Shown here: positions 39,272 through 45,067 of the stretch, piece by piece
How the letters are laid out: each line of letters opens with the position of its first letter
How positions within the stretch are numbered: the first letter of the stretch is position 1
Assembly (NCBI RefSeq): GCF_015354315.1
Contig: NZ_JADKYY010000011.1
Span: 1 to 64,000, forward strand
Source of the DNA: Planobacterium oryzisoli
GTDB taxonomy: Bacteria; Bacteroidota; Bacteroidia; Flavobacteriales; Weeksellaceae
Direction: 5' to 3'
DNA length: 64,000 bases
The notes under the pieces: model-generated
Databases searched by the model: none
Told to the model about the DNA's origin: nothing
The model's input: the letters and a program-made list of their open reading frames with translations, nothing else
Made by a program: the position numbers and the translations under genes

Positions 39272-41527
39272 TTAGTCGTTACTTGCTGTTTGTACTTCAG
39301 TTGTTTTGATATCTGTACCTAATCTTTGCAAATAAGCTATCAATGCGATAATCTCTTTTTTCTCCAGTTCTCCTTCAGGTCTGGTAGCATATGCTTGTTT
39401 TAAATCCGCCGCTTCTGAGAATATCTGGTTAACAATAAACTTGGCTTGGTTGTCTGCCCATACATCCGCAGTATCAATTTGTGCCTGTGTATAAGGAACA
39501 TCAAATACATCCTTCATTAAAGTTAACTTGTTTGCCATTTGGGAGCGGTCCAGATCATTTGCTATCAGCCAAGGATACCGCGGCATGATGGAACCAGCAG
39601 ATGTAGAACGGGGGTTGTACATGTGCTTATAGTGCCATGACGAAGGGTTTTTTCCTCCCTGTCTGTGAAGGTCCGGTCCAGTTCTTTTAGAGCCCCAAAG
39701 GAATGGCCTGTCGTATACAAATTCACCGGCTTTAGAATATTGTCCATTCTTTCCATTGAAGCGAACAACTTCGTCACGAAATGGTCTGATCATTTGTGAG
39801 TGGCAGGAATTACATCCTTCTCTAATGTATAGATCTCTACCTTCTAGTTCGAGCGGTGTATATGGTTTAACTGCAGAGATAGTAGGTACATTCTCCTTAA
39901 CCGTTAAGGTAGGAATGATTTGCACGGCACCTCCAATTGCCACCGCAATGAATGCCAATATAGATAGTAGAACCGGCATTCTTTCTAACCACAAGTGCGT
40001 TCCCTCTCCTTCCTTTCTGGAATTACTAATATTAGCTAGAGCAGGAGCTTCTGCAGGCAGGTCTTTTTGGAATGATCCTTTTCTCACAGTCGCAACCACG
40101 TTTATTGCCATAAGGATAGCCCCTGTAATATAGAGTGAACCTCCAACAAAACGCATGATATAGTAAGGGATAATGGCCGTAACTGTGTCCAGCCAGTTCT
40201 TCCAAACCAATGTGCCGTCCGGATTAAACTGTTTCCACATTAGGCCTTGAGTAAATCCAGCGATGTAAAGTGGTACCGCATAGAAGATGATACCTAGCGT
40301 GCCCAACCAGAAATGCCAGTTTGCTAATTTAGTAGACCAAAGTTTGGTTCTCCACATTATTGGTAGCATGTAGTAGATCATACCAAACGCTATAAAGCCA
40401 TTCCAACCTAAAGCACCTAGATGAACGTGACCAATTACCCAGTCCGTATAATGGCCGATTTTATTTAACGTTTTTGTCGCTAAGAGCGGCCCTTCGAATG
40501 TTGCCATACCGTAGCAGGTAATAGCCACAACAAAAAACTTAAGGATTGGATCTTCGCGAACCTTATCCCATGCACCTCTTAGCGTTAGAAGTCCATTAAG
40601 CATACCTCCCCAAGATGGAGCGATTAGCATGATTGAGAAACCAGTTCCAAGAGCCTGAGCCCATGCTGGTAGTGCCGTATATTGTAAATGGTGCGGACCT
40701 GCCCAGATATATACAAATATTAATGACCAAAAGTGAATGATCGATAATTTATAGGAAAATACAGGTCTGTCAGCAGCCTTAGGAAGAAAGTAGTACATAA
40801 GTCCAAGAACAGGTGTAGTAAGGAAAAATGCTACTGCATTGTGCCCATACCACCACTGAACTAAAGCATCCTTTACTCCCGCATACGCACTGTATGATTT
40901 CCACATGGTTAATGGAACTTCCAGGTTATTGAAAATATGTAGCATTGCTACGGCAATCCACGTTCCTATATAGAACCAAATGGCAACGTATAAATGGCGT
41001 ACTCTTCTCTTAGCAATAGTTCCAAACATGTTGATACCAAAAAGAACCCATGAAATAGTAATTAGGATATCGATTGGCCACTCATGTTCTGCGTATTCTT
41101 TGGAAGTGTTTATACCCATAAAGAAGGTAATCACTACAGCTACAATCATGATTTGCCACGTCCAGAAGTGCGCCCATGAGATAGCATCACTATACATTCT
41201 GGCTTTTAGTAGACGTTGTAGTGAGTAGTAAGCTCCAGCAAATATACAGTTACCCACAAAAGCAAATACCACTGCAGATGTATGCAACATACGAATTCTA
41301 CCGAATCCGAAGGCTCCCTGTGAGTTTATTAATCCTTCAATATTTCCGGCCGCCAAACTCTTAATAGTCGGGTCGTCTGTTCCTAAGAAAAACTCAGGAA
41401 GTTCCGGGTAAAAAAGCATTAATGCAGCAGTAAGACCGAACGTAAAACCTATGATACCGAAAATAACGGTAGCATATAAGAATGCACGCACGATGCTATT
41501 GTCATAACTAAACTTTTGTGTTTCCAT
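39272..41527 (-). CDS. ccoN: cbb3 cytochrome c oxidase, fused CcoN-CcoO subunit
   Basis: Terminal oxidase core reducing O2 to water with high affinity and pumping protons. Residues 1-480 form CcoN, with about twelve helices. Likely metal ligands include His82 (low-spin heme b), His229 in WWYGHN and His279/280 in GPHH (copper B), and His367/369 in GHVHLG (hemes). After a linker and a helix (about 518-540) comes CcoO, with one heme c site C572-x-x-C575-H576 and SQMIRPFRDE. In many bacteria these are two separate genes; the fusion is common in Bacteroidota. It is 751 residues. Confidence 0.96.
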   Translation of the reverse strand: METQKFSYDNSIVRAFLYATVIFGIIGFTFGLTAALMLFYPELPEFFLGTDDPTIKSLAAGNIEGLINSQGAFGFGRIRMLHTSAVVFAFVGNCIFAGAYYSLQRLLKARMYSDAISWAHFWTWQIMIVAVVITFFMGINTSKEYAEHEWPIDILITISWVLFGINMFGTIAKRRVRHLYVAIWFYIGTWIAVAMLHIFNNLEVPLTMWKSYSAYAGVKDALVQWWYGHNAVAFFLTTPVLGLMYYFLPKAADRPVFSYKLSIIHFWSLIFVYIWAGPHHLQYTALPAWAQALGTGFSIMLIAPSWGGMLNGLLTLRGAWDKVREDPILKFFVVAITCYGMATFEGPLLATKTLNKIGHYTDWVIGHVHLGALGWNGFIAFGMIYYMLPIMWRTKLWSTKLANWHFWLGTLGIIFYAVPLYIAGFTQGLMWKQFNPDGTLVWKNWLDTVTAIIPYYIMRFVGGSLYITGAILMAINVVATVRKGSFQKDLPAEAPALANISNSRKEGEGTHLWLERMPVLLSILAFIAVAIGGAVQIIPTLTVKENVPTISAVKPYTPLELEGRDLYIREGCNSCHSQMIRPFRDEVVRFNGKNGQYSKAGEFVYDRPFLWGSKRTGPDLHRQGGKNPSSWHYKHMYNPRSTSAGSIMPRYPWLIANDLDRSQMANKLTLMKDVFDVPYTQAQIDTADVWADNQAKFIVNQIFSEAADLKQAYATRPEGELEKKEIIALIAYLQRLGTDIKTTEVQTASND

Positions 41528-41540
41528 ATAAACTAATACT

Positions 41541-41762
41541 TTATTCTGTTCTTTCGTTTTCTTTGTCCCGGCTTCGCGTTTCCTGAGTTTCTTCTGTGGC
41601 TTGTACGGTTTTCTCGTCTTTTACACCGTCGTCAAATAATATTCGTACTGCCGGCGATTCATCGTCCTCAAATTGGCCTTTGCGAGCATTAATAATAAAA
41701 ACTATTAAAAAAATGACCGCTAAAGATACACTGCAAATTATCATTAAATAGAGTATATCCAT
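41541..41762 (-). CDS. ccoS: cbb3 oxidase maturation protein CcoS
   Basis: 73 residues. One N-terminal helix (about 3-25) is followed by the CcoS-type motif NARKGQFEDDESPAVRILFDD and a charged tail. CcoS is needed to insert cofactors into CcoN. It is the first gene of ccoS-NO-Q-P, and a TAAATTTG box lies only seven bases upstream of its ATG. Confidence 0.92.
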   Translation of the reverse strand: MDILYLMIICSVSLAVIFLIVFIINARKGQFEDDESPAVRILFDDGVKDEKTVQATEETQETRSRDKENERTE

Positions 41763-41769
41763 AGGATGG

Positions 41770-41777
41770 CAAATTTA
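41770..41777 (-). promoter_or_regulatory. Proximal TAnnTTTG -7 box of the cco structural operon
   Basis: On the minus strand TAAATTTG ends seven bases before the ccoS ATG. A transcript starting from it would be almost leaderless. Confidence 0.45.
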
Positions 41778-41792
41778 AAATTTTCGAGTTCT

Positions 41793-41800
41793 CAAATTTA
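41793..41800 (-). promoter_or_regulatory. Distal TAnnTTTG -7 box of the cco structural operon
   Basis: A second identical TAAATTTG on the minus strand lies 23 bases upstream of the first. Either could be the working promoter. Confidence 0.45.
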
Positions 41801-41809
41801 TGGAAAAAT

Positions 41810-41825
41810 AATGATATAAGTCACT
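41810..41825. promoter_or_regulatory. Candidate Crp/Fnr-family site upstream of ccoS
   Basis: AATGA-N6-TCACT has the TGA-N6-TCA geometry bound by many Crp/Fnr regulators and lies just upstream of the two -7 boxes. The divergent Crp/Fnr gene at 44.4 kb is the obvious candidate partner. This is a pattern match only. Confidence 0.3.
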
Positions 41826-41874
41826 TCACGTTAAAAAACGTTAATTTAAAACCCTTCTAAATAGGATGCGTTTA

Positions 41875-44262
41875 CTATCGATACAGCTTGAAATATTTTG
41901 TACTTCGAACCCAGGTTGCCAAAGTAGTAAAAGCAACTACTGTAATCGAGCTTATCGGCATTAAGATAGCGGCAACTAAAGGGGACATGTAACCCATAAC
42001 CGCCACCGAAATTCCAATAACGTTGTAAAGTAAGCTGATTGCAAAGGTTATTCTTACGATCGAAATAGAATCATGACCTAAATGGAGGTATTTGTGTAAA
42101 TGTGTTACTTTCTTCCCGCTCATAATTATGTCCGAAGCAGGAGTAAATGCATTACTGTCGTCCGCAACAGCAACCCCCAAATCACTTTGCTTAAGTGCTC
42201 CAGCATCATTAAGCCCGTCTCCGAGCATCATGACTTTCTTGCCTTCCTTTTGTAATTTTCGTATATAATTCAACTTGCTCTCAGGATCCTGATTAAAAGC
42301 CATATTAACCAAGCTAGGGAAGAGTTCCTGAAGTTGCTTTTTTTCGGATTCATTGTCCCCACTTAAAACATGTAGTTGGTAGGAGGAAAGTTCTTGAGAA
42401 AGTTTATTCAAATTTTTCCTGTATTCGTTTTTGAATATATATTTCCCTACAAATTTGTCGTTTTTAGAAATATAAACAGCGGTTTCCAGGTTTATTTTGT
42501 CCTGACTACTGTATCGTGCGGAGCCTATCTTGTAATGCTGTCCCCGGACGGTTCCCTCGTATCCTTGGCCGGGATAATCACTAAAGTTTTCTACTTCAAA
42601 ATAGAGGTCTGTTTCCTCTATCTCACTGTAGAGCATTTTTGATAATGGATGGTTGCTGTTCTTTAGTAAAGACTTTAGATTGATCAAGTCCTGACTGGTT
42701 AATGGTTCCCCTTCGTACCGGATCTTCGATCTTTTGTTTTCGGTTAAAGTACCGGTCTTATCAAATACAATGGTGTCAATTTCAGCCATTTTTTCGATAG
42801 TTAGCGTGTCTTTCACGTAAAACTCGTTTCTTCCAAGAATACGCATAATATGGCCAAAAGTAAACGGTGCAGAGAGTGCGAGTGCGCACGGACAGGCCAC
42901 AATGAGAACCGCGGAAATTACCTGAAACATTTGTTCTTGGTCGATCCGATACCAGTACACCCCAGCGGTCAAAGTGATTAAAAGAATTACAAATGTAAAG
43001 TACTTGCTGATTTTATTGGTTAAATTGTCCAGTCCATGTTCGTGCTTTTTGAACGCTTCCTTATTCCAGAGCTGTGTTAAATAGCTTTGGTCGACATTTT
43101 TTATCACTTCCAATTCAAGGACAGACCCCACTTGCTTGCCTCCAGCAAAAATTTTATCTCCTGGGCTCTTGGTAATAGTGGAGCTTTCACCGGTAATGAA
43201 GCTATTGTCTATGTTTCCCTGGCCACTGATCAATATGGTATCCACCGGAATGATTTCCTGGTTCCGCACCATAATGCGATCGCCTAATTGTAGTTCAGAT
43301 AACAGTATGTTTTTCTGAACTCCTCCGTCCAAAAGCTTAGTTACAGCGATCGGGTAGAATGATTTATAATCACGGTCGTAGGAAAGCGCACTGTAGGTCC
43401 TTTTCTGAAACACCTTGCCAAGCAGCATGAAAAATAAAAGTCCACATAAAGTATCAAAATACCCAGGACCATAATCAGTAAGGACTTCGTAGATACTTCG
43501 CAAGTACAGTACCAAGATTCCCAAAACAATTGGGACATCAATATTTACCACCCTATTCTTAAGTCCGTAAAGCGCGGATTTAAAGTAATCCGAAGCGGAA
43601 TAGAATACGACCGGGGTTGCAAGAAGGAACATTATAAACCGAAATAGATGTTTGTACTGCTCCATCCAATAGTCGGAAGTGCCCAGTATAATTTCTGCAT
43701 ATTCCGGAAAACTAAAAAACATTCCGTTTCCAAATGCAAAACCTGCCACAGCCAATTTAATAAGTAAAGTCTTGTCCAGTACCACTTCTTTCTTATCTGC
43801 CGTTTCCAGGTTTATTACCGGCTTATACCCAAGGGAAGAAAGTAAAGTGGCTAATTCACTTAATTTGAATTTTTGCGAATCAAAAGAAACCTGTAGTGTT
43901 TTCTTCGTAAAATGAACTTGGGAATAGTGTATGTGTGGACTTAAGTCATGAAGACTTTCTAAAAGCCAGATACAGGAAGAGCAGTGAATGACCGGGATCT
44001 TAAATGTCACCAAAGTGGTGGTGCCTTCGCTAAAATCGGTAACTTTTGAGAATATCTCCGCAGTATCTAAGTAGCTAAAATCTTCTCCAGAAGTTTCGGG
44101 GCGGATACCCGATTTTTTATTTAGCTCGTAAAATTTGCTTAAGTCATTGGAATTTAGAATTTCAAACACGGATTTGCACCCAACACAACAAAATAACTTT
44201 TCTTGGAAGGTGATGCGCTCCTTTTGAATTTCTTGGCCACAATGATAGCAGTTTTCACTCAC
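41875..44262 (-). CDS. ccoI: CcoI/FixI-type heavy-metal P1B ATPase
   Basis: Copper-exporting P-type ATPase supplying copper for cbb3 oxidase. The N-terminus has the paired cysteine region CYHCGQ and CCVGC, then a heavy-metal domain with HCSSC. Eight membrane helices include CPCALALSAP (metal site). The cytoplasmic part has the phosphorylation site DKTGTLTEN and a hinge GDGLND. The start is inferred to be GTG at 44262 (MSENCYHCGQ), 795 residues. The frame stays open to 44406, but that extension would cross the promoter region. It is transcribed toward ccoS and divergent from the Crp/Fnr gene. Confidence 0.95.
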   Translation of the reverse strand: MSENCYHCGQEIQKERITFQEKLFCCVGCKSVFEILNSNDLSKFYELNKKSGIRPETSGEDFSYLDTAEIFSKVTDFSEGTTTLVTFKIPVIHCSSCIWLLESLHDLSPHIHYSQVHFTKKTLQVSFDSQKFKLSELATLLSSLGYKPVINLETADKKEVVLDKTLLIKLAVAGFAFGNGMFFSFPEYAEIILGTSDYWMEQYKHLFRFIMFLLATPVVFYSASDYFKSALYGLKNRVVNIDVPIVLGILVLYLRSIYEVLTDYGPGYFDTLCGLLFFMLLGKVFQKRTYSALSYDRDYKSFYPIAVTKLLDGGVQKNILLSELQLGDRIMVRNQEIIPVDTILISGQGNIDNSFITGESSTITKSPGDKIFAGGKQVGSVLELEVIKNVDQSYLTQLWNKEAFKKHEHGLDNLTNKISKYFTFVILLITLTAGVYWYRIDQEQMFQVISAVLIVACPCALALSAPFTFGHIMRILGRNEFYVKDTLTIEKMAEIDTIVFDKTGTLTENKRSKIRYEGEPLTSQDLINLKSLLKNSNHPLSKMLYSEIEETDLYFEVENFSDYPGQGYEGTVRGQHYKIGSARYSSQDKINLETAVYISKNDKFVGKYIFKNEYRKNLNKLSQELSSYQLHVLSGDNESEKKQLQELFPSLVNMAFNQDPESKLNYIRKLQKEGKKVMMLGDGLNDAGALKQSDLGVAVADDSNAFTPASDIIMSGKKVTHLHKYLHLGHDSISIVRITFAISLLYNVIGISVAVMGYMSPLVAAILMPISSITVVAFTTLATWVRSTKYFKLYR

Positions 44263-44284
44263 GTTCTTATAAGGACTTGACCTG

Positions 44285-44292
44285 CAAAAATA
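44285..44292 (-). promoter_or_regulatory. TAnnTTTG -7 box of ccoI
   Basis: Minus-strand TATTTTTG lies 22 bases before the ccoI GTG. The nearest upstream TTG (plus 44318-44320) is 25 bases away and lies in the right arm of the palindrome. Confidence 0.5.
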
Positions 44293-44303
44293 TAACAAAA
44301 AAC

Positions 44304-44321
44304 TTTGCCCTTCAGGGCAAA
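44304..44321. promoter_or_regulatory. Inverted repeat between the ccoI and Crp/Fnr promoters
   Basis: TTTGCCC-TTCA-GGGCAAA is a perfect 7-bp inverted repeat with a 4-base spacer. Its left arm contains the TTG of the Crp/Fnr gene promoter and its right arm covers the -33 region of the ccoI promoter. A protein bound here would contact both promoters. Confidence 0.5.
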
Positions 44322-44335
44322 ATAGTCTATTTTTG
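44305..44335 (+). promoter_or_regulatory. Complete TTG-N20-TAnnTTTG promoter of the Crp/Fnr gene
   Basis: TTG at 44305-44307 and TATTTTTG at 44328-44335 are 20 bases apart, within the 17-23 range known for flavobacterial promoters. The box ends 18 bases before the ATG. Confidence 0.65.
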
Positions 44336-44353
44336 CTGATAAATATCATAGGT

Positions 44354-45067
44354 ATGTCAGCAGAAAAACAGGAACTTATAGAAAAAAATTTTTTGAGTGT
44401 TTTCAATGAAGTTTCTTTTAAGGAAATGTTATCAGAAGAGGATTTTAAGAAGTATATGGATGCGAAGAAAACGGTTCATATCCGTAAAGGAGAATTAGTA
44501 TTCGCAGAAGATGAAAATCCTAATGGAGTTTATTTCATCGAAAAAGGTACGGTTAAACTCTCTAAGTCTGGTGTATACGGAAAAGACCAAATTCTTCGAT
44601 TTATTAAAGATGGAGATTTAGTGGGTTACCGTTCCCTCCTGATAGGGGAAAACTTCCAGGCAAAGGCGGAAGCAATGTCCGATATTCAAGCGGTTTTTGT
44701 GCCAGGCGACGTTTTTTTACACATGCTAGAGGTGGATCCCAAGCTTTCCTTTGCAATGCTTCAGAAGTTTGCTTATGAGCTTGGAGAATCGTCCAATACA
44801 ATCACTTATCTTGCTCAAAAGACAGTTCGAGAGCGATTGGCCGAAGTTCTTTTGCTTTTAGAGCAAAAATTAGGTACAGATCCCGAAGGATTTATAAGAA
44901 TATCCTTGACCAGAGAGGAAATTGCCAATCTAATTGGAACCGCTACGGAAAGCGCCATTAGGTTGATTTCGGAATTTAAACACGACGAATTAATTGAAAC
45001 CGAGGGACGAAATATTAAAATCCTCAACCACGAGAAACTAATAAAGTTAGGTCACGTGGTGATGTAA
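44354..45067 (+). CDS. Crp/Fnr-family transcriptional regulator
   Basis: 237 residues. A cyclic-nucleotide-binding-like beta-roll (about 40-130, GVYFIEKGTVKL and GDLVGYRSLL) is joined by a long dimer helix to a C-terminal winged helix (LTREEIANLIGTATESAIRLI). The protein contains no cysteine at all, so it cannot carry an Fnr-type 4Fe-4S oxygen sensor. The ATG at 44354 follows the promoter and replaces a TTG at 44333 that overlaps the -7 box. Its divergent position beside ccoI suggests that it controls the oxidase cluster, as FixK does elsewhere; the signal is unknown. Confidence 0.9.
   Translation: MSAEKQELIEKNFLSVFNEVSFKEMLSEEDFKKYMDAKKTVHIRKGELVFAEDENPNGVYFIEKGTVKLSKSGVYGKDQILRFIKDGDLVGYRSLLIGENFQAKAEAMSDIQAVFVPGDVFLHMLEVDPKLSFAMLQKFAYELGESSNTITYLAQKTVRERLAEVLLLLEQKLGTDPEGFIRISLTREEIANLIGTATESAIRLISEFKHDELIETEGRNIKILNHEKLIKLGHVVM

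Follow-up and report, generated by a model that had tools for sequence, protein, structure and literature searches.

The gap between ccoI and a divergent Crp/Fnr-family regulator gene (crp) in Planobacterium oryzisoli contains a conserved FNR-type box, TGAT-AAAT-ATCA (TGATAAATATCA, positions 44337 to 44348). This box is likely to be a working operator by which the encoded Crp/Fnr protein represses its own gene and activates ccoI. The proposal is built on the sequence, its conservation, a fixed spacing and the fit of the recognition helix, and from these we infer binding by the encoded protein, the start sites, the repression, the activation and the signal. The initial annotation of the window, by which we mean the whole analysed stretch of 64,000 nucleotides, had assigned the operator function to an inverted repeat in the same gap. 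Its idea that the encoded protein acts on both promoters is still the best reading of the gap, but the site that it named was wrong, and the conserved box lies 15 bp downstream. Thus, a palindrome that probably arose by chance is replaced by a conserved and testable operator. This gives a concrete prediction for the control of the cbb3 oxidase genes in Chryseobacterium, Kaistella and relatives, and hints at a rule for the position from which Crp/Fnr proteins activate Bacteroidota promoters. The type of control is ordinary, i.e. FixK/FNR-like regulation of a cbb3 oxidase, and it is undescribed for this lineage in the literature found; our search, which covered subscription journals thinly, returned no described operator at ccoI/crp in Flavobacteriia.

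The ccoI/crp gene pair

The ccoI gene encodes the copper P-type ATPase of cbb3 oxidase assembly and is located on the minus strand (41875 to 44262, with a GTG start at 44262). Its product contains the Pfam domains E1-E2_ATPase and, N-terminally, ATPase-cat_bd, and its match to the NCBIfam heavy-metal ATPase model is below the cut-off. The divergent regulator gene (44354 to 45067, plus strand, ATG at 44354) starts 91 bases away and encodes a 237 amino acid protein. The presence of a cNMP_binding (PF00027) and a HTH_Crp_2 domain (PF13545), both above their cut-offs, assigns this protein to the Crp/Fnr superfamily. A terminator-like hairpin (TCGGGGCGGATACCCGA) followed by TTTTTT is found inside ccoI on its antisense strand (44096 to 44112, plus strand).

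Conservation was analysed in two sets of loci. Set 1 was drawn from 59 genomes (own, genus, family and order), of which 45 contained a match to the regulator with E <= 1e-20; the best 30 loci, the window's own among them, were used, and ccoI is the divergent neighbour of the regulator gene in 27 of these. Set 2 was drawn from genome contigs and comprises the best 80 of 177 loci, mostly from Chryseobacterium, Kaistella, Epilithonimonas and Cloacibacterium. The divergent ccoI/Crp-Fnr pair is kept in all of these 80 loci, with a gap of 86-106 bases. Pooling both sets provided 107 pairs, including the window's own and some duplicates, and the 102 pairs with a box gave 72 distinct box-anchored sequences.

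The FNR-type box

The box is located directly behind the -7 box of crp. The pattern TGAY-N4-RTCA is present in the gap in 79 of the 80 loci of set 2 (best 80 of 177), where it reads TGATAAATGTCA in 62 loci, TGATAAATATCA in nine, TGACAAATGTCA in six and has other forms in two, and in 25 of the best 30 loci of set 1. The strict box is missing in L095 of set 2 and in L011, L019, L029, L032 and L033 of set 1, although these five set 1 loci carry the same regulator helix. L011 and L095 apparently represent one genome, that of Cloacibacterium rupense, in which the gene pair and the recognition helix are kept and the strict box is lost.

As the sequences were anchored on the box pattern, its fixed letters appear conserved through the selection of the rows; among the free letters of the box-anchored distinct sequences, the middle AAAT is 94-97% conserved and the following T 96%. 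The box contains the core of an anaerobox, TGAT-N4-ATCA with its inner G at a distance of five bases from the dyad. Of the full consensus TTGAT-N4-ATCAA, the outer T...A is absent, the window reading CTGATAAATATCAT. In L026 and L027, which have no adjacent ccoI, the box is still found behind the crp -7 box, indicating that it is tied to the crp gene.

Promoters and their distance to the box

In the Flavobacterium psychrophilum transcriptome, TAnnTTTG is found at -12 to -5, according to the available text of PMC9723704. In the window, both promoters use TATTTTTG as -7 box, and a scan for the sigma-70 consensus gave no match. For crp, the -7 box (44328 to 44335, plus strand) is preceded by the -33 element TTTG (44304 to 44307, plus strand), and the arrangement TTG (44305 to 44307)-N20-TATTTTTG is present, its TTG lying within the inverted repeat as the initial annotation had proposed. 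Each base of both elements is 84-100% identical across 37 distinct sequences that share this spacing and were selected by TAnnTTTG at the place of the window's -7 box.

The -7 box of ccoI (44285 to 44292, minus strand; TAATTTTG in many relatives) is located at a fixed distance to the FNR-type box. The -33 region of this promoter had likewise been placed within the repeat. This holds for its position, but the sequence 20 bases upstream of the -7 box is CTG instead of TTG and is not conserved, and the minus-strand TTTG of the repeat is 25 bases away from the -7 box. No conserved -33 TTG was detected at the ccoI promoter in the pooled homologous gaps, which would fit an activator-dependent promoter.

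Between the box centre and the first T of the ccoI -7 box, 49.5 bases were counted in 52, 50.5 in 25 and 52.5 in two of 79 loci (best 80 of 177; two of the 79 also hold a second, nearer TAnnTTTG), and the corresponding distance to the crp -7 T is 13.5 or 14.5 in all 79. Counted from the start of the box, the ccoI -7 T is 45 bases away in 17, 44 in two and 46 in one of 23 set 1 loci, and the others show 40, 36 and 35; L025, with 40, deviates by half a turn, and L031 and L034 are one turn shorter. If the -7 box corresponds to -12 to -5, the predicted start sites place the box centre at about -62.5 for ccoI and +3.5 for crp in the window, and at -61.5 for ccoI in the 52 of 79 loci with the 49.5-base spacing. 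Its sequence extends across the transcription start predicted for the regulator gene. According to PMC6343905, the centre of FNR class I sites is at -61.5 or -71.5.

The inverted repeat

The repeat TTTGCCC-TTCA-GGGCAAA (TTTGCCCTTCAGGGCAAA) is present at 44304 to 44321 exactly as initially described, and it was correctly noted to differ from the Fnr consensus, while the FNR-type box nearby was overlooked. A genome search for further copies had been recommended; it returned a single exact copy of the 14-base pattern in the 2.1-Mb genome and, with up to two mismatches allowed, 12 places versus four for the backward control. Lack of conservation among relatives with the same gene pair had been named beforehand as the outcome that would speak against the repeat, and this is what was observed. 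It is kept in none of the 80 set 2 loci (best 80 of 177), where its best match has 4-7 mismatches in 14 positions, and in none of 71 distinct aligned sequences (pooled sets, window excluded), which have 4-9 of 14 mismatches at the aligned position. The best matches in the 29 relatives among the best 30 set 1 loci also have 4-7 of 14 mismatches.

Only the left end of the repeat, TTTG, is conserved, which fits its role as a -33 element. In the 37 of 71 sequences that have the -7 spacing of the window, the four bases of GGGC in the other arm (44315 to 44318) are 54, 32, 14 and 5% identical. We also considered a hairpin that is conserved in spite of drifting letters and rejected it, because the 71 sequences contain on average 3.5 of seven complementary pairs versus 3.8 of seven at control positions. 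In addition, the inner G of the repeat is six bases from the dyad versus five in the FNR, NnrR, HcpR and CRP consensuses, and its half-sites are 2 bp too wide apart for published CRP/FNR operators.

Among 20,000 shuffles of the gap, 5.1% contained a perfect inverted repeat of 7 bp with 3-8 bases in the loop, as did three of 83 distinct homologous gaps, one of them the gap of the window itself; the repeat exceeds chance expectation weakly. As RNA, it folds better than shuffled sequences on both strands (z -3.1 and -3.9), and read leftwards, on the minus strand, it is terminator-like with a 9-pair stem followed by TTTTTTG. Conservation and geometry led us to reject the repeat as an operator, and in this respect it is very probably a lineage-specific coincidence around the -33 TTTG of the crp promoter.

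The regulator and its paralogues

The 237 residues of the regulator include no cysteine and hence no N-terminal cysteine cluster, so the protein is not of the Fe-S FNR type. Its score with the NCBIfam Fnr model is 75.7 bits versus a cut-off of 228, and the regulators in the best 30 loci of set 1 have zero or one cysteine in their first 60 amino acids. The recognition helix motif GTATES is found in 29 of the best 30 loci of set 1 and in 78 of the 80 loci of set 2 (best 80 of 177), the exceptions being L022, a mis-hit of the motif search, and two set 2 loci that were missed or mis-hit.

Alignment to the solved Crp/Fnr protein 3h3u identified Thr180, Glu181 and Arg185 (CRP numbering). A correlation between residues and bases, in which R180 goes with G3 and E181 with A6 of the half-site, is reported in the available portion of PMC1274295. 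By this rule, Glu181 predicts a half-site of the TTGA type, which is what the box contains, whereas the repeat has TTGC. The fit to the residue-base rule supports the view that the encoded protein may bind the box.

Three genes with HTH_Crp_2 are found in the genome, the one in the window and two paralogues. One of these (L218, about 41400-42021 on contig C12 of the own genome) encodes a Crp/Fnr protein with the FNR-like helix RIETIIR and is located beside a gene for a multi-pass membrane protein; a TGATTGAAATCA site (TGAY-N4-RTCA, C12:42010) is present right after its HTH. Among relatives with the box, the number of HTH_Crp_2 genes ranges from 2 to 15, which leaves room for a paralogue as the binder; the sole complete genome with a single such gene, G016, has no strict box.

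A second box and the rest of the genome

A second FNR-type box (TGACTTATATCA, 41812 to 41823, minus-strand reading) was detected upstream of ccoS-ccoNO. Of 73 distinct regions on the downstream side of ccoI, derived from the best 80 of 177 loci, 65 have a strict box. The open reading frame at 41541 to 41762 (minus strand) encodes a small membrane protein of 73 amino acids that is ccoS-like by its position and that we take to be CcoS. The 751-aa open reading frame at 39272 to 41527 (minus strand) is presumably a CcoN-CcoO fusion, and a CxxCH-type CHSQ motif is present in its second part.

The ccoS promoter contains two conserved TAnnTTTG motifs about 23 bases apart (41760-41830; L076-L155), both of which read TAAATTTG in the window. 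The first (41793 to 41800, minus strand) is 17.5 bases from the centre of the second box, and the second (41770 to 41777, minus strand), the likely -7 box of ccoS, is 40.5 bases away. The 17.5-base spacing is found in the window and in 63 of the 73 distinct regions; in 62 it is accompanied by a motif at 39.5-41.5 bases, and one more has the 17.5-base spacing only. The remaining ten comprise eight that lack the strict box and two in which the box is at the end of the read stretch. The farther spacing of 40.5 would put the box at about -52.5, which differs from the position at ccoI by one helical turn.

Across the genome, the box by itself occurs at 105 places versus 113 for the backward control; it shows no enrichment and thus has no predictive value of its own. 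Combined with a TAnnTTTG 32-48 bases further on, it occurs at 12 places versus four in the control. These 12 include ccoI, ccoS, a radical-SAM HemN-like gene, a Mrp-type ATPase, a multicopper nirK-like gene, PEPCK, a YceI gene and a TonB receptor, and one place (L180) is inside an open reading frame, judged by its context; the names hemN and nirK are our reading of Pfam domains. The gap between box and TAnnTTTG is 33-35 or 44-46 bases in nine of the 12 places, and the binomial P of 0.006 is only indicative, because these windows were chosen after ccoI and ccoS had been seen.

At the nirK-like multicopper gene (L219, own genome, C15:98938-98992), the box TGACATTTGTCA is 41.5 bases from TAAATTTG, and in the congener L220 TGACAAAAATCA is found at the place of this box. 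The hemN-like gene was rejected as a conserved target, as a box at the same spacing was found in 0 of 25 relatives. For the nirK-like gene, conservation is weak, with a box at the same place in one of ten relatives and a near-match in another. On these counts, a wider regulon beyond the cbb3 genes is put forward as a suggestion only.

Proposed mechanism and alternatives

We propose that a Crp/Fnr dimer would bind the TGATAAATATCA box and cover about -3 to +9 of the crp promoter, which would block it and lead to autorepression. The same dimer would be placed some 62 bp ahead of the predicted ccoI start, i.e. at a class I distance, where it could recruit RNA polymerase to a promoter that has a -7 box and no conserved -33 element. 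The second box would serve ccoS-ccoNO. The signal is probably low oxygen or the redox state. Caution on this point is advised by a study of CRP/FNR homologues from wastewater genomes (PMC8510549, available in part), in which Flavobacteriales proteins are placed near MalR and carbon sensing is predicted; these homologues may not be orthologues of the window protein.

The strongest competitor of a common operator is that the box acts on crp alone and that its constant distance to ccoI merely reflects a short, slowly evolving gap. This is rather improbable: the gap of 86-106 bases (best 80 of 177 loci) is indeed short, with both promoters packed into it, but its length varies by 20 bases and the spacing between box and ccoI by three. 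The absence of a conserved -33 element at ccoI and the recurrence of a similar spacing, one turn shorter, at ccoS also speak against an effect on crp only. It is somewhat less probable still that the box is bound by a paralogue (C12:41816-42007, helix RIETIIR), which would make crp and ccoI targets of another regulator. Such a protein is available, since the genome contains three HTH_Crp_2 genes and the FNR-like helix of L218 is joined by the TGAY-N4-RTCA site at C12:42010. However, the box stays with the crp promoter even without an adjacent ccoI (L026, L027), which is the usual pattern of autoregulation.

Two further explanations concern the repeat, and we give both very little credence. As an operator at which the regulator shuts or alters both promoters, the repeat would have in its favour the perfect 7-bp arms, its uniqueness in the genome, its position over the crp -33 element and the ccoI -33 region and its resemblance to the NnrR consensus ctTTGcgnnnncgCAAag (PMC1274295, as far as available). 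Against this, it is absent in 80 of 80 relatives that keep the pair (best 80 of 177), no drifting hairpin takes its place in the pooled sequences, its inner G is six instead of five bases from the dyad, and Glu181 calls for A at the place of the repeat's C, by the rule in the same partly available article. If the repeat instead served in this lineage as a terminator or hairpin against antisense transcription from crp toward ccoI, the minus-strand 9-pair stem with its TTTTTTG and the folding z of -3.9 would be explained. However, no transcript is known to cross the repeat, which is unconserved and situated upstream of the ccoI -7 box.

Returning to the box as operator of both genes, a broader generalization can be offered tentatively and with considerably less confidence: in this flavobacterial family, a cysteine-free Crp/Fnr protein would combine self-repression and activation of oxidase assembly at one common operator, and the Bacteroidota RNA polymerase would follow class I spacing, with the box centred around -52 or -62 from a TAnnTTTG promoter that lacks a -33 element. 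If true, the regulator would serve the lineage as its master switch for oxygen or redox state, replacing Fe-S FNR.

Comparison with known systems

Within the family, FNR recognizes TTGAT-N4-ATCAA, and HcpR TTGAC-N4-GTCAA or TGTGA-N6-TCACA. By its letters, the closest look-alike of the repeat is the NnrR operator ctTTGcg-N4-cgCAAag (PMC1274295, partial text), but the repeat is 2 bp wider between its TTGC/GCAA half-sites, and Glu181 of the window protein suits TTGA. The predicted position of the box upstream of ccoI resembles that in Escherichia coli FNR class I promoters, in which the activator site is near -61.5, although the sigma consensus differs here (PMC6343905, in the part available).

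Bradyrhizobium FixK2, as presented in the accessible sections of PMC9104804, is an auto-repressed cbb3 regulator with no known cofactor, as we propose here. It recognizes a 14-bp imperfect palindrome, TTGA/C-N6-T/GCAA. Its activity is set by the single cysteine C183 and by FixLJ, whereas the window protein has no cysteine.

The rhizobial systems, described in the available text of PMC7888657, share several features with the window. FixK/FnrN control fixNOQP and fixGHIS, and FnrN is autorepressed through a box at -2. Thus, a Crp/Fnr protein, anaeroboxes of the TGAT-N4-ATCA type and a cbb3 oxidase with its assembly genes are found in both cases, and a common operator in a divergent gap, at -62/+6, has been proposed there for another regulator (K-box). 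In contrast to the window, the activating rhizobial anaeroboxes are at -32 to -34 and fixK is controlled by FxkR or FixJ. FnrN also has a cysteine cluster, whereas the window protein is free of cysteines and would act from one box that is common to crp and ccoI.
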